The translations under genes were made by a program, and so were the position numbers. From the NCBI RefSeq assembly GCF_001750105.1, contig NZ_CP014143.1, positions 3,069,501-3,133,500 on the forward strand: a stretch of DNA of 64,000 nt, written 5' to 3'. The notes under the pieces were generated by a model. The model was not told the DNA's origin and searched no databases. It worked only from the letters and a program-made list of their open reading frames with translations. Within the stretch, counting starts at the first letter, position 1. The number at the start of each line of letters is the position of its first letter. Positions 32,194 to 45,536 of the stretch are shown one piece after another. This DNA is from Microbulbifer aggregans (GTDB taxonomy: Bacteria > Pseudomonadota > Gammaproteobacteria > Pseudomonadales > Cellvibrionaceae).

Positions 32194-32862
32194 TTACTCC
32201 GGAGCAAACACCCGCAGGATCTGTGCAGCGAGACCATCGAGGGACAGACCTTTGCCCTCCGGCCTGAACCAGTTGTGGGTATGCGCGATTGCACCCTGGA
32301 TGAGACGCCGGCTCAGCGCCGGGTCATCCAGCGGACCGCCAAGCGCGGAAAATACCTCGCGCCAGATCTGCTCATAGCTGTCCCGCAGCCGAAGCACGCC
32401 CGCCTGACTCTCGGCAGAGAGACTTCGCCACTCCAGCACCAGAATGGAGAATCCCGGCACGGCGCGCCCGTGTATGGCCTCCAGCTCGCAGCGAATGCAG
32501 GCGTGCAGCTGTTCCCGTGGCGCTCCGGCGGTGGCGACCGCTTCCGCCATCCGCGCCCGCGCGAAGTGAATGACCTCTTCCATCACGCAGCGGAGGATCT
32601 CCTCCTTGCTGGAAAAGTGATGAAAGATACTGCCCGAAAGAATGCCCACTTCAGCACCAATGTCACGCACCGTCGTGCGGGCAAATCCCTTCTGTTCGAA
32701 CAGGTGAGCGGCACAATTGAGCAGCCGCCCACGGGTTGATTGCGGGTCGGACAACAGTCCCTCAGCCACCAGGGTCGCGATCAGCGTGCTGTCGGAGTCC
32801 AGTCTGCCTCCCCCGACGCTGCTACCCGACCCTCTGTGTTTTGTCGCAACTTTTTCTGCCAC
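32194..32862 (-). CDS. TetR/AcrR-family regulator of the adjacent acyl-CoA cluster (AtuR-like)
   Basis: 223 residues from GTG 32862 (AGGGGC lies just upstream); the frame also opens at TTG 32901. The N-terminal helix-turn-helix is TRGRLLNCAAHLFEQKGFARTTVRDIGAEVGILSGSIFHHFSSKEEILRCVM. The C-terminal part is the ligand domain, expected to bind an acyl-CoA by analogy with AtuR and related regulators. It diverges from the SDR gene; an 18-bp palindrome (32933-32950) lies between, so it probably represses the cluster and itself. The same palindrome occurs before the BKACE gene. Confidence 0.9.
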   Translation of the reverse strand: MAEKVATKHRGSGSSVGGGRLDSDSTLIATLVAEGLLSDPQSTRGRLLNCAAHLFEQKGFARTTVRDIGAEVGILSGSIFHHFSSKEEILRCVMEEVIHFARARMAEAVATAGAPREQLHACIRCELEAIHGRAVPGFSILVLEWRSLSAESQAGVLRLRDSYEQIWREVFSALGGPLDDPALSRRLIQGAIAHTHNWFRPEGKGLSLDGLAAQILRVFAPE

Positions 32863-32932
32863 TGCCCCTGCTCCCGCTTTCTGGCGCCAAAACCTACGCA
32901 ATCATCACTGAGGACACGATGGATGATTGCGA

Positions 32933-32950
32933 ACCAAGCAAGTGCTTGGT
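32933..32950. promoter_or_regulatory. Palindromic operator candidate for the TetR regulator
   Basis: ACCAAGCAAGTGCTTGGT: eight-base arms ACCAAGCA/TGCTTGGT around AG. It lies 70 bp from both the TetR GTG (32862) and the SDR ATG (33020), in the right place to control both. A near-identical site is at 43429. Binding by this TetR is inferred. Confidence 0.75.
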
Positions 32951-33019
32951 AGTTTCGTTAATTGTCCGCCCCCAAGGGCGGCCATGCAAGCCCCGCAGTC
33001 GATAAGAAGGAGAAGAGGC

Positions 33020-33913
33020 ATGCCCTACCAGAGCCAGCTGCACCCAGAGAGTTTCAGCGGTCAGACTATTATCGTGACCGGCGGCGGCAGCGGTATCGGC
33101 CGCTGCATCGCCCACGAGGTGGCAAGCCTTGGAGGACATCCCGTGCTCATCGGCCGCACGGAAGAAAAGCTCGCCGCCGTGACAGACGAGATACAGTCCG
33201 ATGGGGGCAATTGCAGCCATTACAGCCTGGATATCCGCGACGAGGATGCGGTGGTAGCAACCGTGGCACAGGTAGTAAAGGCGCGCGGTCCCATTCGCGG
33301 TCTGGTCAACAATGCGGGAGGACAATTCCCCGGCCTGCTCTCTCAGATCAAGCGCAAGGGCTTTGAAGCCGTCGTGCGCAGTAACCTGGTCGGCGGGTTT
33401 CTGATGTCCCGGGAAGTATTCAACCAGAGCATGGCGGAGCACGGCGGCAGCATCGTCAACATCACCGCCGACAACGTCGGTGGAATGCCGATGATGGGCC
33501 ATTCCGGTGCCGCTCGCGCCGGAATGGAAAACCTCACCCAGACGGCAGCGGTGGAATGGGCATCCAGCAGTGTTCGGGTAAATGCGGTGGCTCCGGGCTA
33601 TATCCTGTCCAGCGGTTTCGACACCTACGACCCGGAATTCCTGCGCCAGTTACTGCCGGGCTTCCGGGAAACCATCCCACTGGACCGGCTGGGCGAAGAG
33701 GCCGAAGTCAGTGCCGCTGTGTGTTTTCTGCTGTCCGATGCCGCCCGCTATATTACCGGTCAGACTTTGCACATCGATGGCGGCGGCAGTCTCAAACATC
33801 ATTCACCACTGTGGCGTCCCTCGTCCGCCAAAAACCGCAAGGCGTTCAACGGCTTTCACCGCAGCAACCGACCGAAAGTCGTCGAGGAGCTCGAGGCCGA
33901 GGGGAAACTCTGA
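33020..33913 (+). CDS. Short-chain dehydrogenase/reductase (atuB-like position)
   Basis: 297-residue NAD(P)-dependent oxidoreductase. The cofactor loop is TGGGSGIGRCIAHEVASLGG (residues about 18-37), then NNAGG, and the catalytic region GHSGAARAGMENL, where the usual Tyr-x-x-x-Lys reads S-G-A-A-R-A; the typical Tyr/Lys are therefore not apparent. This is seen in the 2,4-dienoyl-CoA-reductase-like SDRs (DECR type), which use another catalytic set. The N-terminus MPYQSQLHPESFSGQ is typical of AtuB/DECR-like proteins. ATG is preceded by GGAGAAGAGG. Its stop overlaps the next ATG (TGATG). Proposed role is reduction or oxidation of an acyl-CoA or alcohol of the terpenoid route; substrate uncertain. 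Confidence 0.85.
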   Translation: MPYQSQLHPESFSGQTIIVTGGGSGIGRCIAHEVASLGGHPVLIGRTEEKLAAVTDEIQSDGGNCSHYSLDIRDEDAVVATVAQVVKARGPIRGLVNNAGGQFPGLLSQIKRKGFEAVVRSNLVGGFLMSREVFNQSMAEHGGSIVNITADNVGGMPMMGHSGAARAGMENLTQTAAVEWASSSVRVNAVAPGYILSSGFDTYDPEFLRQLLPGFRETIPLDRLGEEAEVSAAVCFLLSDAARYITGQTLHIDGGGSLKHHSPLWRPSSAKNRKAFNGFHRSNRPKVVEELEAEGKL

Positions 33914-35520
33914 TGCAGCCTTTCGACTCTTCGATCGATACCAGCGCGGAAGAGTTCCTCCGCAATCGCGAGGCCATGCTTGCGGCCATCGAGAAATTCC
34001 GCGATGCGGAAAAAAAACCCCAGGTTGCAGCGGAAGCGCGTGCACAGCGGTATCGCGAGCGCGGCTGGCTGTTACCGCGAGAAAGGCTCAACCGGCTGCT
34101 CGACCCCGGAACACCGTTTGTCGAACTCTGCCCCCTGGCGGGCTATAAGCTCTATGACGATGCGGACGGCAGTGGTGCCGGCGGCGGTGCCATTTGCGGT
34201 ATCGGCTTTGTCAGTGGCAGGCGCTGCGTGATTCGGGTGGATAACTATGCGGTAAAGGGCGGCACCATCTCCCCCGCCGGCATGGACAAGGCCCTGCGCA
34301 TGCAGCAGGTCGCGCTGGAAAACCGCCTGCCCGTGGTCACCCTGGCCCAGAGTGGCGGTGCCAACCTGATTTACGCAACGGAAACCTTTGCCCCCGGCGG
34401 GCGGGGCTTTGCCAATCAGGCGCGGATGTCCGCAGCGGGTATACCACAGGTGACTGTAGTACACGGTGGGGCCACAGCTGGCGGCGCATACCAGCCAGGG
34501 CTGTCCGATTACGTGGTGATGATCCGCGGGCAGACGGGTATGTACCTGGCCGGTCCGCCACTGCTTAAGGCCGCCACTGGTGAAGTGGCTGACGAGGAGA
34601 GCCTGGGAGGCGCCGAGATGCATTGCCGTGAGGCGGGCAGCGGGGATTATCTCGCCGAAGACGATGCCGATGGCATTCGCCTGGCTCGGGAAATCGTGGC
34701 CACCCTACCAAAATCGCCTCAGCTGGAGGAGTCCTGCGAGTGGCAGCCGCCCATCTACCCTGACCATGAACTACTGGGGGTTGTCCCGGCTGACAGCCGC
34801 AAACCCTATGACGTCCGGGAGCTGCTCGCGCGCATTGCCGACGGCTCTGCCCTGCTCGATTTCAAACCCGAATTCGACCAGCAGACCGTCTGCGCGCACA
34901 TCCGTATCGAGGGCAGGGTCATCGGCGTGCTCGGCAACAACGGTCCAATCACACCGGGCGGCGCCAACAAGGCTGCGCAGTTCATCCAGCTTTGCGACCA
35001 GGGCAGAACCCCGCTGTTATTTCTTCACAACACCACCGGCTTTATGGTGGGAACAGCAGTAGAGCGGCAGGGCATCATCAAGCACGGATCGAAAATGATT
35101 CAGGCCGTAGCCAATGCCCGTGTGCCCAAAATCAGTATCGTGGTGGGCGGCTCCTATGGTGCGGGCAATTATGCGATGTGCGGCCGCGGCTTCGACCCCC
35201 GATTTATTTTCGCCTGGCCCAACGCCCGCACAGCAGTGATGGGAGCCTCCCAGGCTGGCAAAGTCATGCGCATCGTCAGTGAGCAAAAGATGCAGCGTAG
35301 CGGCGCGGTCGACGAAGCGGCGCTGGATAAGCTGGAGGCAGATACGGCCGCCTTTCTCGATGCCGGCTCCGATGCCATTTCCTGCAGCGCCCGCCTCTGG
35401 GACGACGGCATCATCGATCCCAGGGATACACGGCGCCTGCTGGGCTTTTTGCTGGAAGTCTGTCATGAGGCAGACGCAGCACAACTCGCGACCAATACTT
35501 TTGGTGTCGCTCGCTTTTAA
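33913..35520 (+). CDS. Acyl-CoA carboxylase beta subunit (geranyl-CoA or methylcrotonyl-CoA type, atuC-like)
   Basis: Carboxyltransferase subunit (535 residues) of a biotin-dependent acyl-CoA carboxylase. The N-terminal half carries LAQSGGANLIYATETFAPGGRGFANQARMSAAGIPQVTVVHGGATAGGAYQPGLSDYVVMIRGQ, followed by AGPPLLKAATGEVADEESLGGAEMH. The C-terminal half has GNNGPITPGGANKAAQFIQLC, FLHNTTGFMVGTAVERQGIIKHGSKMIQAV and SYGAGNYAMCGRGFDPRF. Both match the MCC/GCC beta family. Where methylcrotonyl-CoA carboxylases have GRIFYNQ or GRTFYNQ this one reads GRGFANQ, i.e. smaller side chains. It starts inside the SDR stop, and the partner alpha subunit is encoded downstream. Confidence 0.93.
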   Translation: MQPFDSSIDTSAEEFLRNREAMLAAIEKFRDAEKKPQVAAEARAQRYRERGWLLPRERLNRLLDPGTPFVELCPLAGYKLYDDADGSGAGGGAICGIGFVSGRRCVIRVDNYAVKGGTISPAGMDKALRMQQVALENRLPVVTLAQSGGANLIYATETFAPGGRGFANQARMSAAGIPQVTVVHGGATAGGAYQPGLSDYVVMIRGQTGMYLAGPPLLKAATGEVADEESLGGAEMHCREAGSGDYLAEDDADGIRLAREIVATLPKSPQLEESCEWQPPIYPDHELLGVVPADSRKPYDVRELLARIADGSALLDFKPEFDQQTVCAHIRIEGRVIGVLGNNGPITPGGANKAAQFIQLCDQGRTPLLFLHNTTGFMVGTAVERQGIIKHGSKMIQAVANARVPKISIVVGGSYGAGNYAMCGRGFDPRFIFAWPNARTAVMGASQAGKVMRIVSEQKMQRSGAVDEAALDKLEADTAAFLDAGSDAISCSARLWDDGIIDPRDTRRLLGFLLEVCHEADAAQLATNTFGVARF

Positions 35521-35522
35521 CC

Positions 35523-35545
35523 CGGGGCGTCTGTAAAACGCCCCG
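35523..35545 (+). other. Intercistronic hairpin between carboxyltransferase and acyl-CoA dehydrogenase genes
   Basis: Eight-base stem CGGGGCGT / ACGCCCCG around CTGTAAA, starting two bases after the stop of the carboxyltransferase gene. No U-run, so it is more likely an mRNA-processing or stability element than a terminator. Confidence 0.5.
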
Positions 35546-35576
35546 CTACCCGAACCCAAGGCCTCAGGGAGCAACC

Positions 35577-36788
35577 ATGATCCTGACCGACGAACACCGC
35601 GAACTCCAGCGCACTGTAAGAAATTTTGTCCAGCAGGAGATCAATCCCTGCGTTGATGAATGGGAACGGGCGGGCGCATTTCCGGTACATGATCTCTTCC
35701 TTGAACTGGGCAAGCTTGGCCTGCTGGGAATCAGCAAGCCGGAAGCCTGGGGTGGCCTTGGCCTCGACTTCAGTTACGAGGCGGTATTTCTCGAGGAGCT
35801 GGGTGCGGCACACTGCGGCGGGGTACCCCTATCCATTGCTGTGCAGACTTCGATGGCAACACCGGCGCTGGCAAACTTTGCCAGCGATGAGCTGAAGGCG
35901 GAATTTCTCGCACCCGCGATTCGGGGTGAGACAGTAGCCTCGATCGCCGTCTCAGAGCCCGGCGCCGGTTCAGATGTCGCCGCGATCAAGACCCACGCCC
36001 GCAGTGACGGTGATGACTACATTGTCAACGGCGAGAAAATGTGGATTACGAATGCCCCCGCAGCAGATTTTTTCTGCACCCTGGTCAATACCGGTGAGGG
36101 CAAACCCCACCAGAATAAATCCCTGCTGGTCATCCCCGCCGACAGCCCCGGGATTACCGTTGGCAAGCGGCTGCATAAAATGGGCATGCGTTCGTCAGAG
36201 ACCGCACCGGTGGCGTTCGAGGACGTCCGGGTGCCGAAGCGCAACCGCATCGGTGACGAGGGTGCCGGCTTCCTGTTGCAGATGCTGCAGTTCCAGGAGG
36301 AGCGCCTGGCCGGGGCAGCGCTCACTATCCGCGGCCTCGAGAACTGCATCAGCCATACCATCGATCACGTGCGTGAGCGCAAGGTTTTCGGTGCTCCCCT
36401 ACTGGACAACCAGGCCATCCACTTCGCTCTCGCCGAGATGCAAACCGAGGTGGAGTGCTTCCGCTCTTTAACCTGGCGTGCCGTCGAAGCATTCGTTGCG
36501 GGCGAGGATGTCACCACGCTGGCCTCGATGGCGAAACTGAAGGCCGGCCGCCTGTGCCGCAGCATCCCCGACCAGTGCCTGCAGTTCTGGGGCGGAATGG
36601 GCTATGTGGAAGAAACCCTGATCAACAGAGCCTACCGTGACTGTCGACTGACGCCAATTGGCGGCGGCGCTGACGAAGTCATGCTCGGCATCATCTGCAA
36701 GCTGATGGGCATTCTCCCGAGCCGTAAGCGCCAGAAGAGCTCCCCTCCCAAAGCCACCGAGCAAAGTTCAGTCGGTGATGCCGATTGA
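35577..36788 (+). CDS. Acyl-CoA dehydrogenase (atuD-like)
   Basis: FAD-dependent acyl-CoA dehydrogenase of 403 residues. The flavin-binding signature AVSEPGAGSDVAAIKTHA and KMWITNAPAADFFCTLVN are present, then KMGMRSSETAPVAFEDVRVP and the C-terminal FWGGMGYVEETLINRAYRDCRLTPIGGGADEVM. In the atu order this position holds the enzyme that oxidises citronellyl-CoA to geranyl-CoA; the substrate here is an inference from neighbours. A 20-residue Lys/Ser-rich tail follows the core. Confidence 0.93.
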   Translation: MILTDEHRELQRTVRNFVQQEINPCVDEWERAGAFPVHDLFLELGKLGLLGISKPEAWGGLGLDFSYEAVFLEELGAAHCGGVPLSIAVQTSMATPALANFASDELKAEFLAPAIRGETVASIAVSEPGAGSDVAAIKTHARSDGDDYIVNGEKMWITNAPAADFFCTLVNTGEGKPHQNKSLLVIPADSPGITVGKRLHKMGMRSSETAPVAFEDVRVPKRNRIGDEGAGFLLQMLQFQEERLAGAALTIRGLENCISHTIDHVRERKVFGAPLLDNQAIHFALAEMQTEVECFRSLTWRAVEAFVAGEDVTTLASMAKLKAGRLCRSIPDQCLQFWGGMGYVEETLINRAYRDCRLTPIGGGADEVMLGIICKLMGILPSRKRQKSSPPKATEQSSVGDAD

Positions 36789-36848
36789 GAGGTCGGACAG
36801 GAAGAAGAACCGTGAAGGTTACTGTTACAGAGCACAGGAGAAGCCGGC

Positions 36849-37652
36849 ATGACAGCGCTCATTACTGAACAACAGGGCTGCGTGATCAGGGTCACCCTGA
36901 ATCGACCGGAGCAGCGCAACGCGCTCAACCGTGCATCCATTGAGGAACTGGAAACCGTGTTGACCGCGGCGGAAAACGATCCGCAGGTACGCGCCCTGCT
37001 GATTCGTGGTGCCGGTGGTAACTTCTGTGCCGGCGGCGACCTGAGCGACATGCTCGAGGCACAGCAGGCTTACAGCGACGGCAATCCAAACGCTTTTGCA
37101 GAATTGAGCCGTCGCTTCGGCCGACTGCTGCAGGCAATGGAGCGCAGCCGATTGGTCATCGTATGTGCGATTGAGGGTGTGGCCATGGGCGGCGGTGTGG
37201 GCCTGGTCTGTGCCAGCGATATCTCGATTGCGGCGCCGGGCGCTCACTTTTCTTTACCGGAGACCCGGCTCGGACTGCTGCCCGCACAGATTGCCCCCTT
37301 CCTTAACAGCCGTATCGGGCCGGGCCAGACACGGCGACTGGCTCTCGGCGGTGAAAAACTGGATGCGGCCGAAGCACTCCATATCGGGCTGGTGCATCAA
37401 TTGGCCGTTAGCGCGGAAGAGCTGGACCGTGGCATCGATGCGCTCCTTGCCAATATCCGCCGTAGCGCACCCTCCGCCCTTGCCGCTACCAAGGCATTGA
37501 TACGCGATAGCATCGGGATTGCCCCGGCCGAGCAGGACGCTGTCCTGGATGCCGCGGCAGGGAAATTTTCAGCAGCCGTGCTGGGGGACGAGGGGCGCGA
37601 GGGCGCCCTCGCCTTCCTGGAAAAGCGTCAACCTGAGTGGGCCGAGCAATGA
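36849..37652 (+). CDS. Enoyl-CoA hydratase/isomerase, methylglutaconyl-CoA-hydratase-like (atuE-like)
   Basis: Crotonase-fold enzyme of 267 residues. Oxyanion-hole blocks RGAGGNFCAGGDLSDM and AIEGVAMGGGVGLVCASDISIAAPGAHFSLPETRLGLLPAQIAPFLNSRIG, the latter with the typical hydratase Glu, are close to the 3-methylglutaconyl-CoA / isohexenylglutaconyl-CoA hydratase group (LiuC, AtuE). It would hydrate the carboxylation product before lyase cleavage. Its stop overlaps the next start by four bases (ATGA), so the two are translationally coupled. Confidence 0.92.
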   Translation: MTALITEQQGCVIRVTLNRPEQRNALNRASIEELETVLTAAENDPQVRALLIRGAGGNFCAGGDLSDMLEAQQAYSDGNPNAFAELSRRFGRLLQAMERSRLVIVCAIEGVAMGGGVGLVCASDISIAAPGAHFSLPETRLGLLPAQIAPFLNSRIGPGQTRRLALGGEKLDAAEALHIGLVHQLAVSAEELDRGIDALLANIRRSAPSALAATKALIRDSIGIAPAEQDAVLDAAAGKFSAAVLGDEGREGALAFLEKRQPEWAEQ

Positions 37653-39706
37653 AGGCTGAAGCACAGGAGAACCGCCCTGGCCATGAGCGCCCGACGCTGC
37701 TGGTTGCCAACCGTGGAGAAATAGCCGCTCGGATTATTCGCACTGCCCGGGCGCAGGGCTACCGCACCATCGCCATCTACAGCGATGCAGACGCGGACAG
37801 CCCACACGTGCAGTTGGCCGATAGCGCCATTGCCATCGGCGGCCGGACGCCAGCAGAATCCTACCTGGATATCGAGCGTGTACTGGCGGCCGCCGATCAG
37901 GGCGGGGCCAGAGCGGTACATCCCGGCTATGGCTTTCTGTCGGAAAATGCCGAATTTGCCTGTGCCTGTGTCGAGCGCGGACTGGTTTTTGTTGGCCCCG
38001 CACCGGACACCATCGAACTGATGGGCAACAAGCGTCGGGCCAAATCGCTGGCGGAGTCCGCCGGCGTGCCGGGTATTCCCGGCTACAGTGGTGAGCAGAC
38101 CGATGACGCCCTGCTAAAGGCGGCCCTGGAGATTGGCTTCCCGATCATGATCAAAGCCACGGACGGTGGCGGCGGACGGGGGATGCGCCTCGTTCGGGAT
38201 CGAGAGAGCTTTGCCGACCAGCTGCGCTCCGCACGCTCGGAAGCCAGTGCCGCTTTCGGCAGTGACGAAGTCATCCTCGAGAAAGCCATTTTCTCCGCTC
38301 GCCATATCGAAGTGCAGGTTTTCGCAGATACCAAAGGCACTGTCGTGCACCTGGGCGAACGGGACTGCTCCCTGCAGCGGCGCCATCAGAAAATCATCGA
38401 AGAAAGCCCCTCGCCGGCGGTAGACCCGGCACTGCGGGCCCGTCTTGGCGATGCCGCAAAGGCCGTCGCCAGTGCCTGCCATTATGTTGGCGCCGGCACG
38501 GTGGAATTTCTCCTCGACGATGATGGCAACTTCTATTTTCTGGAAATGAACACGCGATTGCAGGTCGAACACCCGGTGACTGAAATGGTCAGCGGTTTCG
38601 ACCTGGTCGCCTGGCAACTCCTGGTTTCCCGCGGCGATCCGCTGCCTGCCGATCAGGTTGAAATTGACCGGCGGCTGGCCCAGGGCGGACACGCGATTGA
38701 GGCGCGGCTATATGCGGAGGACCCGGCCAATGGTTTTCTCCCACAGAGCGGCAGGATACTGCACTGGCAGGCACCAACCGGTGACGGTATCCGGGTGGAT
38801 TCAGGCATCTGCACCGGACAGCTGATTACACCTTTCTATGACCCGATGCTGGGCAAACTGATCGCCTGGGGTGAGGACCGTGAACAGGCGCGCCTGCGGT
38901 TACTCGGGGCATTACAGGCACCGAGCTTCGTCGGTCCTGCCCATAACTTTTCTTTTCTGTGCGGGCTCGCCTCCAGCCCCGATTTTACCGATGGCCTGAT
39001 CACCACGGATTATCTCGACCGTGCGGGTACCTCACCTGAATCGTCCGCCCCGTCGCCCGGGCTGGTTACTGTTGCCGCGACGCTACTGCATGAGCACAGT
39101 ATCCGTGAGCGGGATCGACGCTCTGGCAGGGCCAACTGGCGCACTGCCAGCGATGACACCCCCCTGCTCTATCGGCTGGAAACCGCCGGCGAAGTCCGCG
39201 ACTGCCTGCTCTGGCCACAGCCTCAGGGCCACTATCGGGTTGAATGCGAGGCTGAAACCAGCACGGTCACCATTCTGCACCGCGACGCCGACACTACCTT
39301 ATCGAGGGTTGAACTCACCATCGGGAGCAGGCGATCCAGTTATTCCTATCTAGCGGACGGGGATTTGCTGCATCTGCTCGACCAGGGTACTCAATGGCGC
39401 TTTTCCAACAGTACCCAGGCACCAGCCAGCAACCGGGCGCCAGCAACCTCGGGCCAGATTTTGGCACCGATGGATGGCTGCATCATCGAAGTACACACCC
39501 GTGCCGGCGCCAGAGTCGCACGGGGCGAGACACTCGCGGTGATGGAGGCGATGAAGATGGAGCACCCGCTGAAAGCCGCGTGTGACGGCGAGGTGATCAA
39601 GCTCGCTGCAGGGGCCGGGGATCAGGTCCGCGGTGGCCAGCTATTGGTCGAAATCGAAGCAGCAATCGAAACAGACTCGCTCATGCACCCGGAATCCACT
39701 GAATGA
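37649..39706 (+). CDS. Acyl-CoA carboxylase alpha subunit, biotin carboxylase plus BCCP (atuF-like)
   Basis: 685 residues. ATG 37649 overlaps the hydratase stop; the frame extends only four codons further. Biotin carboxylase domain: LLVANRGEIAARIIRTARAQGY, HPGYGFLSENAEFA, KATDGGGGRGMRLV, ERDCSLQRRHQKIIEESPS, MNTRLQVEHPVTEM, RLYAEDPANGFLPQSG. The C-terminal biotinyl domain has MDGCIIEVHTRAGARVARGETLAVMEAMKMEHPLKAA with the biotinylated Lys in MEAMKMEH. It pairs with the carboxyltransferase encoded at 33913-35520 to form a heteromeric acyl-CoA carboxylase. Confidence 0.95.
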   Translation: MKAEAQENRPGHERPTLLVANRGEIAARIIRTARAQGYRTIAIYSDADADSPHVQLADSAIAIGGRTPAESYLDIERVLAAADQGGARAVHPGYGFLSENAEFACACVERGLVFVGPAPDTIELMGNKRRAKSLAESAGVPGIPGYSGEQTDDALLKAALEIGFPIMIKATDGGGGRGMRLVRDRESFADQLRSARSEASAAFGSDEVILEKAIFSARHIEVQVFADTKGTVVHLGERDCSLQRRHQKIIEESPSPAVDPALRARLGDAAKAVASACHYVGAGTVEFLLDDDGNFYFLEMNTRLQVEHPVTEMVSGFDLVAWQLLVSRGDPLPADQVEIDRRLAQGGHAIEARLYAEDPANGFLPQSGRILHWQAPTGDGIRVDSGICTGQLITPFYDPMLGKLIAWGEDREQARLRLLGALQAPSFVGPAHNFSFLCGLASSPDFTDGLITTDYLDRAGTSPESSAPSPGLVTVAATLLHEHSIRERDRRSGRANWRTASDDTPLLYRLETAGEVRDCLLWPQPQGHYRVECEAETSTVTILHRDADTTLSRVELTIGSRRSSYSYLADGDLLHLLDQGTQWRFSNSTQAPASNRAPATSGQILAPMDGCIIEVHTRAGARVARGETLAVMEAMKMEHPLKAACDGEVIKLAAGAGDQVRGGQLLVEIEAAIETDSLMHPESTE

Positions 39707-39715
39707 GAGTTCACT

Positions 39716-40879
39716 GTGTTTGATATCGACAGCACCCGGCTCGCCAATCCATTCTTTACCGATGAGCACCAGCAGTGGCGGCAACAGTTACGCCGTTTTG
39801 TTTCCCGTGAAATTCTGCCGCATGTTAATGACTGGGATGAGGCCTGTGCCCTGCCGGGTGACCTGTGGGGCCGGGCTGCGGATGTGGGACTGTTGCAGCT
39901 GGGCTACCCCGAAGAATACGGCGGAGTCCCCGCAGATATCTTTCATGTGATCGTCGCGGCAGAGGAACTGGCCCGCTGTGGCGCTGGAGGGGTTTATGCC
40001 AGCCTGATGGTCCACGGTATCGCCCTGCCGCCGCTGGTGCATTACGCATCGGAGGCGTTGAAAGAAGCCGTGATTCCTCCGGTTTTGCGCGGCAAGCGAC
40101 ATATCGCACTGGCTGTCACGGAACCCGGTGGCGGCTCGGACGTGGCCAACCTGAAGTGCCGGGCTCGACGTAGCGGGGACGAATTTATTGTCACAGGAGA
40201 GAAAACTTTCATCACCGGCGGTATGCGCGCGGACTGGTTCACCACTGCCGTGCGCACCGGGGACGACGGCTTCGGGGGCATTAGCCTGCTGTTGATCCCT
40301 GCCAATGCACCAGGCGTGCACCGTCAGCAGCTGGACCGGAAACAGGGTTGGTGGTGCTCGGATACTGCCACCATTTTCTTTGATGAAGTCCGGGTGCCCG
40401 CAAGCAACCTGATCGGCGAGGAGAACCAGGGCTTTCTCCCCATCGTGCACAACTTCAATCAGGAGCGCCTTGGCATCGCGGCATCCTGTATCGAGTTCAG
40501 CCGCGTGTGCCTGCAGGAAGCCATCGAATGGGCGCAGGAGCGGGAGACATTCGGCAAGCGGCTTGCCAGCCATCAGGTCATCCGGCACAAGTTCGCGCAG
40601 ATGCTGCAACGCATCAACACCACCCAGGCTTACCTGGACCTGTGCGCCTGGCAAGAACAGCAGGGCCAACTCAAGGTCACCGATGTCGCCCTGCTCAAGG
40701 TACAGGCCACGGAAACTCTTGAGTACTGCGCCCGCGAAGCCATGCAGGTAATCGGTGGCGCCAGCTATATGCGGGGCAGCCGCACCGAGCGCATTTATCG
40801 GGAGGTCAGGGTCAACGCCATCGGTGGCGGCTCCGAGGAAATCCTGCGGGATCTCGCCTCGCGCCAGATGGGTATCTGA
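39716..40879 (+). CDS. Second acyl-CoA dehydrogenase of the cluster
   Basis: 387 residues, GTG start 9 bp after the biotin carboxylase stop. Flavin-binding signature AVTEPGGGSDVANLKCRA and EKTFITGGMRADWFTTAVRT, then GWWCSDTATIFFDEVRVPASNLIG, NFNQERLGIAASCIEFSRVC and the ending YREVRVNAIGGGSEEILRDLASRQ. It differs from the atuD-like gene and presumably handles a later unsaturation (chain-shortened acyl-CoA), but the assignment is only positional. It converges with the AGCS symporter gene (16-bp gap). Confidence 0.92.
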   Translation: MFDIDSTRLANPFFTDEHQQWRQQLRRFVSREILPHVNDWDEACALPGDLWGRAADVGLLQLGYPEEYGGVPADIFHVIVAAEELARCGAGGVYASLMVHGIALPPLVHYASEALKEAVIPPVLRGKRHIALAVTEPGGGSDVANLKCRARRSGDEFIVTGEKTFITGGMRADWFTTAVRTGDDGFGGISLLLIPANAPGVHRQQLDRKQGWWCSDTATIFFDEVRVPASNLIGEENQGFLPIVHNFNQERLGIAASCIEFSRVCLQEAIEWAQERETFGKRLASHQVIRHKFAQMLQRINTTQAYLDLCAWQEQQGQLKVTDVALLKVQATETLEYCAREAMQVIGGASYMRGSRTERIYREVRVNAIGGGSEEILRDLASRQMGI

Positions 40880-40895
40880 CTAGAGCCGGTTTCCG

Positions 40896-42371
40896 CTAGC
40901 GGTTGCCATCCCACACATCGTGTTCGACCCCGGGAATATTATGCTTGCGCGCATCGAACACCGGTTCCCGCACACCCTGGGCGCGCTGCGCTTCGTAATC
41001 CGCCAGCACCCGGAAGGCTACGCCGGAAAGAAGCAGAATTGCCAGCAGGTTGGCGGTGGCCATAAAGCCCATGGACATATCCGCCATATTCCACAACAGG
41101 GCGAAGTTATCCGAGCTGCCGCTGTACGCCACCCAGGCACCGAACAGGATGAAGAGAATGTAGAGGGCCCGGTAACAGAAAATCGAAGTGCGGGTATGCC
41201 AGAGATAGAAGATATTCGTCTCTGCGTAGTAATAGTTTGCAATGATCGAAGTGAAGGCAAAGAAAATCAGTGCGAACGCAACAAAGCTCCCTCCCCAGGA
41301 TCCCACTTCACTGGCGAGCGCATCCTGGGTCAGTGTCACACCTTCCATGTTGCCCACCATGTGCATGTCGGCCAGTAGGATGATCGACGCGGTAGCGGTA
41401 CAGATCAGGATCGTATCGAGAAAAACCGAAGCCATCTGCACGTAACCCTGAATCGCCGGATGTTTGACATCCGCAGCCGCGCCAACGTTCGGTGAGGACC
41501 CCATACCGGCCTCGTTGGAGAAGAGCCCGCGCTTGATACCATTGGCAATCACCGCGCCCAGCGCACCGGCACCGGCCTCCTCCAGGCCAAACGCACCACC
41601 GATGATATCGCCCAGCACTCGCAGCAGTTCACCGAAATTCATCACGATTACGGCGATGGCAATTGCGAGATAGGCGAGCGCCATAAAAGGCACCACGATA
41701 CTGGCAAAGCGACCAATGCTGTGAATACCGCCGAATACGATGACGCCTGCCAGCAGCGCGATACAGAGCCCCACCAGTAATGGGTTGACGCCCCAGGCGC
41801 CGTTGACCGCCGCGGCCATCGCGTTGGCCTGTACCGCATTGAAGAAGAAGCCAAAACTCAGGATCAGGAAAATGGAGAACAGTACCGAGAGCCACTTCCA
41901 GCGTTTGCCCAGCCCCTTCTCGATGTAATAGGCCGGGCCACCCCGGAATGTGCCGTGCTCTTCGCCCCGCTCCTTGTAGGTCTGGGCCAGGGTGTTCTCG
42001 ATAAAGCTGGTCGCCATTCCAAGCAGCCCGACCATCCACATCCAGAACACTGCGCCGGGGCCGCCCGCGGTGATGGCCACCGCGACGCCGGCGATATTGC
42101 CGGTCCCCACCCGCGCCGCAGCGCTGGTGGCAAAAGCTTCGAAGGAGGAAACAGAATCGCTGTGCTCGTGGTGGAAGCTGTGGCGCATCACCGACAGCAT
42201 GTGGCCGAAGTGCCGGAACTGAATAAAGCGGCTGTGCCAGGTGAAGTAGATGCCGGTCGGCAAAAGCCCGACAATCAGAATTCCCAGCCACCATAAACCG
42301 CCGATACCGCCCCAGGTAATCGCATTACCCCAGCCAATGAAGCCGGCGAGGCCATCCAGGAAGGCTTGCAT
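40896..42371 (-). CDS. Sodium:alanine/glycine symporter (AGCS family)
   Basis: 491-residue membrane protein with 11-12 helices. ATG 42371 is preceded by GGAG; an in-frame extension exists upstream to 42431. Signatures: FATSAAARVGTGNIAGVAVAITAGGPGAVFWMWMVGLLGMATSFIE, GGPAYYIEKGLG, GAVIANGIKRGLFSNEAGMGSSPNVGAAADVKHPAIQGYVQM. They match the alanine:cation symporter family that imports L-alanine, glycine or related amino acids with sodium. It stands between the catabolic cluster and BKACE; the 120-bp gap upstream of it gives no clear promoter or operator. Confidence 0.95.
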   Translation of the reverse strand: MQAFLDGLAGFIGWGNAITWGGIGGLWWLGILIVGLLPTGIYFTWHSRFIQFRHFGHMLSVMRHSFHHEHSDSVSSFEAFATSAAARVGTGNIAGVAVAITAGGPGAVFWMWMVGLLGMATSFIENTLAQTYKERGEEHGTFRGGPAYYIEKGLGKRWKWLSVLFSIFLILSFGFFFNAVQANAMAAAVNGAWGVNPLLVGLCIALLAGVIVFGGIHSIGRFASIVVPFMALAYLAIAIAVIVMNFGELLRVLGDIIGGAFGLEEAGAGALGAVIANGIKRGLFSNEAGMGSSPNVGAAADVKHPAIQGYVQMASVFLDTILICTATASIILLADMHMVGNMEGVTLTQDALASEVGSWGGSFVAFALIFFAFTSIIANYYYAETNIFYLWHTRTSIFCYRALYILFILFGAWVAYSGSSDNFALLWNMADMSMGFMATANLLAILLLSGVAFRVLADYEAQRAQGVREPVFDARKHNIPGVEHDVWDGNR

Positions 42372-42491
42372 GAGAAGCTCCAGAGCAAACAGCGCCACCG
42401 GCCCGGAATTCGCCGGAAACCGCTGGCGCACAAAGCCACTAATCTAACAAGCGTAGACGAGTTATGGAGCTTGCAGGGCCGGCCTAGGGGG

Positions 42492-43346
42492 TCAGAGGAA
42501 AATCTCACGTGCCCGCTGCGGAGATACCACCTTGCGGCCCGCCTGCTGGGCAACCTGCACCAACGCTTCGATCAGCTGGCCGTTGCCAGAGGTACGCTCA
42601 CCACCGGGGAGATAAAAGGTATCCTCCACGCCGGTGCGCAAATGTCCGCCCAACTCGGCCGTGCGACGATGCACCGGCCAGATCTCTTCCCTGCCGATCA
42701 GGGTGGTCTGCCACAGGGCGCCGGGCTTCATGTAGCGGGGCAACAATGCCAGCAGTTCGCCATCTGCGGGCATACCCGAGGCCACACCCATCACCAAGTT
42801 GTAATTGGGCCTGTCCACCATCCCCACATCGGCAAACATGCCCACCGAGCGGACGATGCCCACATCAAAACATTCAAACTCGGGACGGGTACCCGTCTCC
42901 TGGCAGACCGCCAGCAGTTCCTCGACTTTATCCACCGGGTTTTCGAACAACATCGGCGGCCAGGCCCAGGTGCCATTGGAACGGGCCTTGAGGTAATTCA
43001 GGCTACCGGCATTGCATGCGGCGATCTCGGGACGCCCGGCACGAATACATGCCAGGGCTCCCGACTGATCGCGTCCGATGGTGCCGGTCGTGAAATTGAG
43101 AATAACCCCAGGGCAGGCGCTGCGGATTGCCTCGGCGATTGCCGTTGCCACTTCTGGATCCCAGCTGGGCAGATGGCCCATGCCTGGCTCCTGCGCGCGG
43201 AAGTGCACGTGCATCACGGCTGCGCCCGCGTCATAGGCCTCCCGCGCTGACTTCGCCATTTCCTCGGGCGTCACGGGCACCGGGTGCTGGCTCGGATTGG
43301 TGAGCACCCCGGTCAGGGCACAGGTAATCACTACCTCATCGGACAT
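42492..43346 (-). CDS. BKACE (beta-keto acid cleavage enzyme, DUF849)
   Basis: 284 residues from ATG 43346, with GAGAGGAG six bases upstream; open frames run upstream to 43376. Members cleave a beta-keto acid with acetyl-CoA into acetoacetate and a shortened CoA ester; the founding member is 3-keto-5-aminohexanoate cleavage enzyme. Signatures: VVITCALTGVLTNPSQHPVPVTPEEMAKSAREAYDAGAAVMHVHFR, ILNFTTGTIG, EFECFDVGIVRSVG, YNLVMGVASGMPAD and GGHLRTGVEDTFYLPGG. HVHFR, ECFD and GLRTGVED-type motifs hold zinc and substrate. The operator-like palindrome 83 bp upstream matches the TetR site at 32933, so I infer shared control. The actual keto-acid substrate is unknown. Confidence 0.93.
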   Translation of the reverse strand: MSDEVVITCALTGVLTNPSQHPVPVTPEEMAKSAREAYDAGAAVMHVHFRAQEPGMGHLPSWDPEVATAIAEAIRSACPGVILNFTTGTIGRDQSGALACIRAGRPEIAACNAGSLNYLKARSNGTWAWPPMLFENPVDKVEELLAVCQETGTRPEFECFDVGIVRSVGMFADVGMVDRPNYNLVMGVASGMPADGELLALLPRYMKPGALWQTTLIGREEIWPVHRRTAELGGHLRTGVEDTFYLPGGERTSGNGQLIEALVQVAQQAGRKVVSPQRAREIFL

Positions 43347-43428
43347 GCGCATCTCCTCTCGACAGGCAGTCATCACCGCCTACGTTTCCTTGCCTTCAAC
43401 CGAGACAGCATTGAAAGGCGCCCGCACA

Positions 43429-43446
43429 ACCAAGCAAGCGCTTGGT
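43429..43446. promoter_or_regulatory. Second copy of the TetR operator-like palindrome
   Basis: ACCAAGCAAGCGCTTGGT, identical to the site at 32933 in 17 of 18 bases (T to C at position 11). It lies 83 bp upstream of BKACE and 141 bp upstream of the S9 peptidase gene. By position it fits control of BKACE better. A link to the TetR is inferred from sequence identity. Confidence 0.75.
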
Positions 43447-43586: not shown

Positions 43587-45536
43587 ATGCGCGATTCCAC
43601 AGTCACCGAGGCTCCGTATGGCAGCTGGAAATCACCGATCAGTGCCGACCACCTGGTGGCCGGCAGTGTGCGCCTGGGCGAAGCCTCAGTAGCAGATGGC
43701 AGTCTCTACTGGCTGGAGTCGCGACCCGCCGAAAAGGGTCGCTCCGTGCTGGTGGAAAGCTCTGCGAGCGGTGAGCGACGGGATGTCACCCCTGCCCCCC
43801 TGAGTGTACGCGCGAAAGCCCACGAATACGGCGGCGCCAGCTACCTGGTGAGCGATGGCGTCGTGTACTTCGTGTTGGCCGATGACCAGCGCATCTACCG
43901 CATGGGCCTCCACGAACAGACACCGGAACCACTGACGCCCGAAGGGCCTTTCCGCCATGCGGACCTGCATCTGGACCGCCGCCGCAACCGCATGCTCTGC
44001 GTGCAGGAGGACTACTCCCCTTGTGCCGACGGCGGCGAAGCCCGGGCACGGATCATTGCCATCGAATTGACCAGCAGTGAACCAGCGACACCCAAGGTGC
44101 TGGCTGAAGGGGCGGACTTCTACTCGAATCCGGCCCTGAGCCCGGACGGCAACCGGCTGACCTTCCTGCGCTGGTACCACCCGGATATGCCCTGGGATGC
44201 GACACAGCTCTGCCTTGCGGAACTGGACGCCTCCGGCTCACCGGTGGCGGTGGAAGTTGTCGCTGGCGGTGAGGGGGAATCCATTTTCCAGCCCCAGTGG
44301 TCCCCTGCCGGTGAACTGTTCTTTGTCTCGGACCGCAGCAACTGGTGGAACCTCTACCGGCTCGGGGAAGAAAAACCGCTCTGGCAGCGCAAGGCGGAAT
44401 TCGCCACCCCGCAGTGGGTCTTCGGAATGTCCACCTACGGCTTTATTACTTCCGACCAGATCCTCTGCACCTTCACCGAGGATGGCCGCTGGAAGCTGGG
44501 CATGATCGACCTCAACAGTGGCAGCCATGAAGTGATCGACCAGCCCTACTGTGACATCGAGAGCGTACGCTGCGAAAGCCACAAGGCAGTGATGATTGCC
44601 GCGGCCGGCGAGCGCTTTCCGGCGGTGGTCTCCTTCGACGACCACAGCGGAAAATTCCAGCAGGTCGCCAGCAGTAACAGCGCTGACTTGCCGCAGGACA
44701 TTTTCTCCATGGCGCAGGCCATCGAGTTTCCCGCCGGGGACCGAACTGTACACGCGTTTTACTACCCGCCACACAACCCCGGCTTCAAGGCTCCCCAAGG
44801 GGATAAACCGCCCCTGATCGTTCTCAGCCACGGCGGCCCCACCGGCGCCACCTCCGCCGGCCTGAATCTCAAGATTCAGTACTGGACCAGTCGCGGCTTT
44901 GCCATTCTCGACGTGAACTATTCCGGCAGCACCGGCTACGGCCGCGCCTACCGGGATCGGCTGCGGGACAACTGGGGCGTCATGGACGTGGAAGATGTCT
45001 GCGCCGGCGCCGAATACCTGGTTTCCAGGGGGCTTGCCGATCCGGAGCGCCTGCTGATCAAAGGCGGCAGTGCCGGCGGCTATACCGTTCTCGCAGCGCT
45101 CACTTTCCACAAGACCTTCAGGGCGGGTGCCAGCCATTATGGTATTGGCGACCTGAGCACCCTGGCGCGGGACACCCACAAGTTCGAATCTCGCTACCTC
45201 GACAGACTGGTGGGCCCCTGGCCGGAAGCGGAGGAGATCTACCGGGACCGCTCCCCGATCCACCATGTGGAGGAACTGGACTGCCCGGTAATCTTCTTCC
45301 AGGGCATGGAAGACAAGGTGGTCCCACCAAACCAGGCAGAGGCCATGGTCAAGGCATTGCGCCAGCAGGGCATCCCGGTGGCATACGTTACCTTTCCTGA
45401 CGAGGGGCACGGTTTCCGAGGCGCGGACAGCATCAAGATGGCCCTTGAAGGCGAGCTGGAATTCTACAGCCGCATATTCCGCTTTCCGCTGGCCGAGCCG
45501 GGCCCCGGCATTACCATCGACAACCTGGACGAGTAG
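43587..45536 (+). CDS. S9 prolyl-oligopeptidase-family peptidase, cytoplasmic
   Basis: 649 residues without a signal peptide. N-terminal beta-propeller-type region with LSPDGNRLTFLRWYHPDMPWDATQL and QPQWSPAGELFFVSDRSNWWNLYR. The C-terminal alpha/beta-hydrolase has LIVLSHGGPTGATSAG, LDVNYSGSTGYGRAYRDRL, the nucleophile LIKGGSAGGYTVLAAL (Ser in GSAGG), EDKVVPPNQAEAMV (Asp/Glu) and FPDEGHGFRGADS (His). It hydrolyses short peptides or acylated peptides. The stop lies three bases before greB, so both may share a transcript. Confidence 0.9.
   Translation: MRDSTVTEAPYGSWKSPISADHLVAGSVRLGEASVADGSLYWLESRPAEKGRSVLVESSASGERRDVTPAPLSVRAKAHEYGGASYLVSDGVVYFVLADDQRIYRMGLHEQTPEPLTPEGPFRHADLHLDRRRNRMLCVQEDYSPCADGGEARARIIAIELTSSEPATPKVLAEGADFYSNPALSPDGNRLTFLRWYHPDMPWDATQLCLAELDASGSPVAVEVVAGGEGESIFQPQWSPAGELFFVSDRSNWWNLYRLGEEKPLWQRKAEFATPQWVFGMSTYGFITSDQILCTFTEDGRWKLGMIDLNSGSHEVIDQPYCDIESVRCESHKAVMIAAAGERFPAVVSFDDHSGKFQQVASSNSADLPQDIFSMAQAIEFPAGDRTVHAFYYPPHNPGFKAPQGDKPPLIVLSHGGPTGATSAGLNLKIQYWTSRGFAILDVNYSGSTGYGRAYRDRLRDNWGVMDVEDVCAGAEYLVSRGLADPERLLIKGGSAGGYTVLAALTFHKTFRAGASHYGIGDLSTLARDTHKFESRYLDRLVGPWPEAEEIYRDRSPIHHVEELDCPVIFFQGMEDKVVPPNQAEAMVKALRQQGIPVAYVTFPDEGHGFRGADSIKMALEGELEFYSRIFRFPLAEPGPGITIDNLDE

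Follow-up and report, generated by a model that had tools for sequence, protein, structure and literature searches.

A putative AtuR-type regulon joining a geranyl-CoA-carboxylase-type operon and a BKACE gene in Microbulbifer aggregans

The locus

The window studied here, a stretch of 64,000 nucleotides from Microbulbifer aggregans (contig NZ_CP014143.1, positions 3,069,501 to 3,133,500), contains a gene for a TetR-family regulator, an acyl-CoA operon divergent from it and, beyond the operon, a gene of the BKACE family. The operon and the BKACE gene are each preceded by one of two near-identical palindromes. The best explanation of the data presented below is that the regulator is an AtuR-type repressor controlling both the operon, of geranyl-CoA-carboxylase (GCC) type, and the BKACE gene, which would stand in the place that AtuA has in the acyclic-terpene (Atu) cluster; from the sequence comparisons we put the probability of this whole reading at about 0.78. 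The features concerned are the following, in window positions:

32194..32901, minus strand: TetR-family regulator, predicted AtuR-type, with TetR_N and TetR_C_24 domains; true start uncertain
32933..32950, plus strand: predicted operator 1, AtuR-type, ACCAAGC-AAGT-GCTTGGT, in the spacer between the TetR and SDR genes; it matches the published AtuR repeat, AGCAAGCGCTTGG, in 12 of 13 bases
33020..33913, plus strand: short-chain dehydrogenase/reductase (SDR) oxidoreductase, AtuB position
33913..35520, plus strand: carboxyltransferase beta subunit, predicted GCC type (AtuC-type), with Gly at position 162 and without the 3-residue insertion; start codon at 33913 predicted
35577..36788, plus strand: acyl-CoA dehydrogenase 1 (ACAD1), AtuD position
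36849..37652, plus strand: enoyl-CoA hydratase/isomerase, AtuE position
37637..39706, plus strand: biotin carboxylase/biotin carboxyl carrier protein alpha subunit, AtuF position
39716..40879, plus strand: acyl-CoA dehydrogenase 2 (ACAD2), with homologues elsewhere that have their own exact site
42492..43346, minus strand: BKACE (PF05853), with HxH (residues 46-48) and RxGxED (237-242) conserved and Leu15 where Kce has Glu14
43429..43446, plus strand: predicted operator 2, AtuR-type, ACCAAGC-AAGC-GCTTGGT, 82 bp before the start codon (ATG) of BKACE; the AtuR repeat is unchanged inside it

The two palindromes and their putative regulator

The first palindrome reads ACCAAGCAAGTGCTTGGT and the second ACCAAGCAAGCGCTTGGT, so that 17 of 18 bases are identical, as an earlier note on this DNA had reported for two near-identical palindromes 10.5 kb apart. 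The second lies 140 bp from the divergent S9 peptidase gene. When up to three mismatches were allowed, the window gave four matches, which are these two places on both strands, against a mean of 0.08 and a maximum of 1 in shuffled sequences. The genome is a single contig of 3,864,326 bp, and the exact pattern ACCAAGC-N4-GCTTGGT was found in it at these two places only; 0.016 copies are expected from the base composition of the window, and the reversed-pattern control gave none. The view that such a match is unlikely by chance was thus confirmed. The motif is not common genome-wide either: with up to two mismatches 18 places were found versus 7 for the reversed control, and weak additional targets may be present among the 15 of them that have two mismatches. 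A third place, with one mismatch (C1:1133167), was rejected as a target of the TetR protein because it sits at the 3' end, inside the last codons, of a PmbA/TldD-type gene.

As far as the consulted part of PMC9973270 goes, a paper whose subject is RdmA, the AtuR homologue of Pseudomonas nitroreducens, the binding sites of AtuR in P. aeruginosa are two repeats of 13 bp, AGCAAGCGCTTGG and CCAAGCGCTTGCT, which lie 40 bp apart, directly before the −10 box of atuA. The former is present exactly in site 2 and in 12 of 13 bases in site 1 and, judged by sequence, the two palindromes are the published AtuR operator. The regulator has the TetR fold and helix-turn-helix (HTH) domain, its TetR_N and TetR_C_24 domains being found also in a Pseudomonas-type TetR, and it is divergent from a GCC-type atu operon, as an AtuR-type regulator would be. 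It shares 52% identity with the regulator of L244, a locus with a GCC/AtuA cluster (G and L numbers denote genomes and loci). Among 52 TetR rows with more than 40% identity, the HTH stretch was 55-80% identical versus 30-62% for the remainder. Exact arms were found upstream of TetR in 25 of 26 TetR loci, which came from 49 candidate stretches; in the exception, L019 (Paraglaciecola), the upstream sites have two mismatches and an exact site lies on the other side of TetR.

At the centre of the TetR-side palindrome, read towards TetR, AAGC was observed in 26 of the 29 Microbulbifer sites, though dyad symmetry does not require it, while the BKACE-side centres are variable (AAGC in 16 of 28). Overlapping dyads or asymmetric binding may explain this bias.

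The carboxylase of the operon

The standard cluster order is AtuR, site, AtuA, SDR, carboxyltransferase, acyl-CoA dehydrogenase, enoyl-CoA hydratase and biotin carboxylase. The operon of the window, whose six genes are co-directional, keeps the order from the SDR to the GCC alpha subunit and ends with the second acyl-CoA dehydrogenase. The top PDB match of its carboxyltransferase was 5ikl_B, the GCC beta subunit of P. aeruginosa, with 807.7 bits versus 475 for methylcrotonyl-CoA carboxylase (MCC). In the part of PMC4673880 available to us, the tests for GCC are a Gly (Gly162 position) where MCC has Phe191, and absence of a 3-residue insertion. The carboxyltransferase of the window passes both and, by these residues, it is a beta subunit of GCC type. 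The pathway is less obscure than the earlier note, which had called it poorly described, supposed: it is a variant of the Atu cluster.

In six of the 17 Microbulbifer loci in which both sites are linked (L088, L090, L094, L096, L097, and L100) the operon is reduced to carboxyltransferase, acyl-CoA dehydrogenase and biotin carboxylase. At the thresholds used these six have no SDR, hydratase or second dehydrogenase, and they retain both sites and BKACE.

Conservation in Microbulbifer

In a sample of 48 Microbulbifer genomes (TetR cut-off, E≤1e-20) the exact motif was present in 29, as two copies in 26 genomes and as a single copy in three, and the reversed control in none. The TetR gene was found in the same 29 genomes, and so was the BKACE subfamily of the window, which was recognised by its score and, in the fetched loci, by an identity of 83-95%. 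Any BKACE was present in 35 of the 48; two further subfamilies, present in 10 and 6 genomes, do not track this set. One motif copy adjoins TetR in all 29 TetR-bearing genomes; the BKACE-side site is exact in 26 and has one mismatch in G038 and G040. The information content of 28 BKACE-side sites (G033 left out) was 1.97 bits per arm position, partly by construction as the arms were chosen by the search pattern, whereas the 60-bp flanks gave 0.33 and 0.12. This low flank information indicates that shared ancestry alone does not keep the arms.

Seventeen of the 29 genomes have both sites within 11.4 kb of each other. In seven more the sites share a contig at a distance of 42 kb to 4.4 Mb, and in five draft assemblies (G008, G020, G033, G038, and G044) each site is on a contig of its own. 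A tree built from the carboxyltransferase and BKACE together placed 11 of the 12 genomes with separated loci in one clade (support of 100 in the Shimodaira-Hasegawa-like approximate likelihood ratio test, SH-aLRT; no bootstrap), which points to essentially one relocation; G033 is a divergent outlier. Within this clade, where BKACE stands apart from the cluster, the BKACE site is exact in nine genomes and one base off in two. The proposal that the TetR protein regulates both the atu-like operon and BKACE is supported by this persistence, by the identity of the site with the AtuR repeat, and by the occurrence of TetR, exact motif and BKACE subfamily in one and the same set of genomes. As drawn from sequence comparison, the case for co-regulation is strong but indirect.

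AtuA and BKACE in GCC loci

PF07287, the family of the AtuA protein used as query, had no match in the genome of the window, and in three of the 48 Microbulbifer genomes it did (G033, G038, and G040). Two of these three proteins were checked; they are 42-44% identical to the query and had no site within three mismatches in the fetched stretch. AtuA was not found in any of 27 Microbulbifer GCC loci, which represent 27 of the 29 genomes.

Outside Microbulbifer, 58 GCC loci were taken by hand from 55 of the 96 GCC-bearing genomes of the order, about one per genus, and absence of AtuA was scored per locus and not per genome. Of 47 loci from BKACE-free genomes, 33 had an AtuA of at least 55% identity and nine an AtuA of 33-54%. 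The remaining five were dropped, since they have no full AtuA (L259 shows part of it) and are truncated by a contig end no more than 2.3 kb from the carboxyltransferase. Consequently, AtuA was lacking in none of the 42 untruncated BKACE-free loci, versus six of the nine BKACE-bearing genomes. These nine genomes gave 11 loci: six without AtuA, three whose AtuA reaches 55% identity or more (G074, G196, and G315) and two more of G315 with a distant AtuA. BKACE is in the locus in five of the AtuA-less cases (G080, G146, G174, G334, and G375) and elsewhere behind an exact site in the sixth, G121. Where the locus has an AtuA of at least 55% identity, a site with no more than one mismatch was present in 34 of 36 cases. 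BKACE directly follows the site in five loci of Cellvibrionaceae (Pseudoteredinibacter and relatives; L020, L021, L022, L024, and L029), and it lies inside or ends the GCC cluster in L257, L263, L264, L265, and L274.

Order-wide survey

The order sample comprised 390 genomes, which were searched for the exact motif and for GCC beta (cut-off E≤1e-175). The motif was present in 87, GCC beta in 100 and both in 77, which leaves 23 GCC genomes without exact motif. The reversed control matched six genomes, which is comparable to the 10 genomes that have the motif but no GCC. Inspection of these 10, from which G156, G219, G369, and G426 were left out, revealed AtuA and TetR on short contigs in G058 and G128, and places with no adjacent query gene, which look like chance, in G202, G321, and G337. 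In G114, which has no GCC match, a TetR gene and an exact motif (L206, G114:C1:1810905-1815905) lie beside acyl-CoA dehydrogenase, SDR and AMP-ligase-like genes; the TetR match consists of two overlapping pieces.

In 39 loci around listed sites, the neighbour of the first exact site was an ACAD2 homologue in 16, at 29-69 bp from the matched start (L194-L200, L202, L203, L211-L213, L215, L216, L218, and L220), an AMP-ligase-like gene in four (150-254 bp), AtuA in four, BKACE in two, ACAD1 in one and an SDR of 32% identity in one; 11 had no query gene. As ACAD2, AMP-ligase-like and other genes have sites of their own, distal members are normal for this regulon. The BKACE type of the window was found in 14 of the 390 genomes, 13 of them with GCC (Fisher test, 1e-7, relatedness ignored). 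Ten of the 14 are outside Microbulbifer, and a BKACE copy has an upstream site (one mismatch at most) in six of these and in none of the other four.

Proposed mechanism and alternatives

We propose that a dimer of the TetR protein would bind both 18-bp palindromes, shutting off the divergent GCC-type operon and, separately, BKACE, and that an acyl-CoA or acid of the pathway would release it. At site 1 the operator occupies the promoter spacer, directly before a −10-like box, so that binding there would block RNA polymerase. The putative promoter of the SDR operon is:

32927..32955, plus strand: −35-like TTGCGA (32927-32932), operator as 17-bp spacer, −10-like TAGTTT (32950-32955); predicted

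The TTG of the −35-like position is kept in 29 of 29 rows of the genus; strict consensus promoter scans around both sites found nothing.

BKACE would serve a branched, isoprenoid-like acyl-CoA pathway, at the place of AtuA in the textbook cluster. Carboxylation by GCC and hydration would give 3-hydroxy-3-alkylglutaryl-CoA, a route set out in the portion of PMC4847356 that we consulted. An enzyme of the type of 3-hydroxy-3-methylglutaryl-CoA (HMG-CoA) lyase, for example from an operon like that for leucine/isovalerate (Liu), would cleave this product to acetyl-CoA and a free beta-keto acid. Both would then be turned by BKACE into acetoacetate and a shortened acyl-CoA, instead of a release of acetate and beta-ketoacyl-CoA. 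The reaction of BKACE enzymes is that of a beta-keto acid with acetyl-CoA to give acetoacetate and an acyl-CoA, and HxH, the metal site, and RxGxED are expected of enzymes that carry it out. Both motifs were kept in 45 of 45 distinct BKACE sequences, as was Leu15, which fits a hydrophobic substrate side chain. The Glu14 of Kce, its counterpart by alignment of a relative to 2y7d with an inferred numbering offset, is described in the passages seen of PMC10470551 as contacting the amino group of the substrate. A route of BKACE through a 3-hydroxyglutaryl-CoA intermediate was also considered and dropped in view of the published BKACE mechanism.

The genome of the window has a Liu-like operon (L295) with a carboxyltransferase and a gene of the HMG-CoA-lyase family, and LiuE of P. 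aeruginosa is reportedly a participant in acyclic terpene catabolism. The HMG-CoA-lyase-like genes L064 and L065 were rejected as cluster partners, as they lie in other neighbourhoods, and therefore the gene of the Liu-like operon is the lyase candidate. Two further HMG-CoA-lyase-like genes lie at G000 C1:3306000-3349000 (L293, L294); the genes beside them presumably have an N-terminus that resembles CaiB-type CoA-transferases. At the thresholds used, the hydratase was not found in six of the 17 linked Microbulbifer loci nor in the loci of G334, G080, G146, and G174; it may therefore be shared with Liu too.

That the BKACE clade replaced AtuA in an Atu-type pathway, acting after the lyase split to acetyl-CoA and a free beta-keto acid, is put forward tentatively, at a little under even odds. 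Several observations weigh against our reading of the locus. The spacer of the window has a single site within three mismatches and not two repeats. Three HMG-CoA-lyase queries gave no match in any GCC locus examined, so that the lyase step rests on genes elsewhere. G033 has no BKACE-side site within three mismatches in the fetched stretch, and in G074, G080, G146, and G174, as well as for one BKACE copy of G334, none was found within one mismatch in the stretches fetched. The sample in which AtuA was scored deliberately included all nine GCC genomes with the BKACE type of the window. In the Exilibacterium locus L018, where only the locus was searched, site and operon are present with neither AtuA nor BKACE. 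Finally, G074, G196, and G315 have AtuA and BKACE together and the two are, therefore, not strictly exclusive.

These last three genomes also speak for another explanation, which we consider unlikely: BKACE would belong to the regulon but serve another co-induced branch, such as branched-chain or fatty-acid beta-keto acids. RdmA is described as controlling the breakdown of a fatty-acid signal in the part of PMC9973270 consulted, so that the regulon extends beyond terpenes. However, the position of BKACE inside or at the end of five GCC clusters and behind the site in the five Cellvibrionaceae loci argues against it, as does the presence of GCC in all but one of the 14 BKACE genomes of the order. 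It is improbable that BKACE itself cleaves 3-hydroxy-3-alkylglutaryl-CoA, doing the step of AtuA with no separate lyase. Its position in the slot of AtuA and the failure of the HMG-CoA-lyase queries to find a lyase gene in the clusters examined would suit such a cleavage, but the invariant HxH and RxGxED are what would be expected for the ordinary BKACE reaction on beta-keto acids plus acetyl-CoA.

A regulator closer to KstR2 than to AtuR in ligand or role, for steroid-type acids, is very improbable. Among the PDB matches of the TetR protein that come next are structures of KstR2 (64 bits), and the KstR2 gel-shift probes in the section of PMC3068626 at hand carry almost the same site; against this stand the 52% identity with the L244 regulator, from a GCC/AtuA cluster, and the GCC type of the operon. 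Finally, it is scarcely credible that the palindromes are a chance match or a terminator hairpin and not operators, since chance was rejected on the genome-wide and order-wide counts against the reversed control and on the co-occurrence described above, and although site 1 passes a simple, loose terminator scan (one found, shuffles mean 0.3), site 2 fails it and both are upstream of genes.

Neighbouring genes

Two genes flank BKACE, and an open reading frame (ORF) lies downstream of TetR:

40896..42431, minus strand: AGCS Na+:amino-acid symporter, 60 bp downstream of BKACE; regulon membership doubtful
43587..45536, plus strand: S9 peptidase, next to BKACE and divergent from it in Microbulbifer; regulon membership improbable
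29468-31963, minus strand: 831-aa ORF, no Pfam or NCBIfam match

The AGCS gene had been seen as a convergent gene standing between operon and BKACE. It is convergent to the operon, but it is on the strand of BKACE and downstream of it and, therefore, does not come between BKACE and operator 2. It was not seen beside BKACE in L069, L075, L102, L208, L210, L274, and L281. The S9 peptidase, suggested earlier as possibly co-regulated, was seen beside BKACE in Microbulbifer only, and the BKACE site occurs without it in L208, L210, L274, and L281; this suggestion is not supported. Both genes were rejected as regulon members for want of support outside Microbulbifer. The ORF downstream of TetR is kept beside it, at 32-70% identity, in the Microbulbifer loci reaching that far, except L012 and L086.

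Relation to known systems

The locus resembles atuRABCDEFGH of Pseudomonas, including the RdmA-dmg system of P. nitroreducens, in the divergent TetR gene, the 13-bp operator, the order from SDR to biotin carboxylase, and the GCC-type carboxyltransferase. It differs in that AtuA is absent and BKACE is under the same operator, in having one spacer operator instead of two, and in that no second SDR or AMP-ligase (AtuG, AtuH) is among its six operon genes. Four loci with an AtuA operon (L232, L244, L245, and L286) have the motif twice in the TetR-AtuA spacer, 43-58 bp from start to start, one motif of each pair having one mismatch. The motif is likewise present in the TetR-AtuA spacer of L287. The carboxyltransferases of L245 and L287, which come from one family of genomes, scored 1,102.8 and 1,079.5 bits against GCC beta of P. 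aeruginosa and, because of these scores, this family is very probably that of Pseudomonas.

The mycobacterial KstR2 regulon also has a TetR regulator, acyl-CoA catabolism and a near-identical operator, AnCAAGnnCTTGnT, of which AGCAAGYGCTTGGT is found inside both sites of the window. However, its operon content is different, KstR2 is involved in steroid catabolism, and the protein similarity is lower; the divergent operon of the window is of GCC type and not one of steroid catabolism. Acyl-CoA catabolism in two different phyla thus has TetR regulators with a near-identical operator (for the KstR2 side, the consulted part of PMC3068626). With the BKACE family (Kce; triacetate acetoacetate-lyase of C. 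scatologenes) the BKACE of the window shares PF05853, HxH and RxGxED, and it differs from Kce in its Leu15 and in its genomic tie to GCC and AtuR. The Liu cluster has the same carboxylase, dehydrogenase and hydratase logic; in contrast, its carboxylase is of MCC type, with Phe and the insertion (PMC4673880, in the part consulted), and the lyase is inside the operon.

No report of BKACE in an AtuR regulon or in the position of AtuA was found in the parts of the literature consulted. The operator itself is already known; the regulon is judged to be real and its composition to be new. In Microbulbifer, the regulon would have been held together by operators after its genes moved apart. If BKACE did replace AtuA, this replacement would be visible in regulatory DNA, with BKACE carrying the AtuR operator even far from the cluster. 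One BKACE subfamily would gain a concrete candidate substrate class, and the last step of the breakdown of terpene and isoprenoid acids, assigned to AtuA, would become testable.

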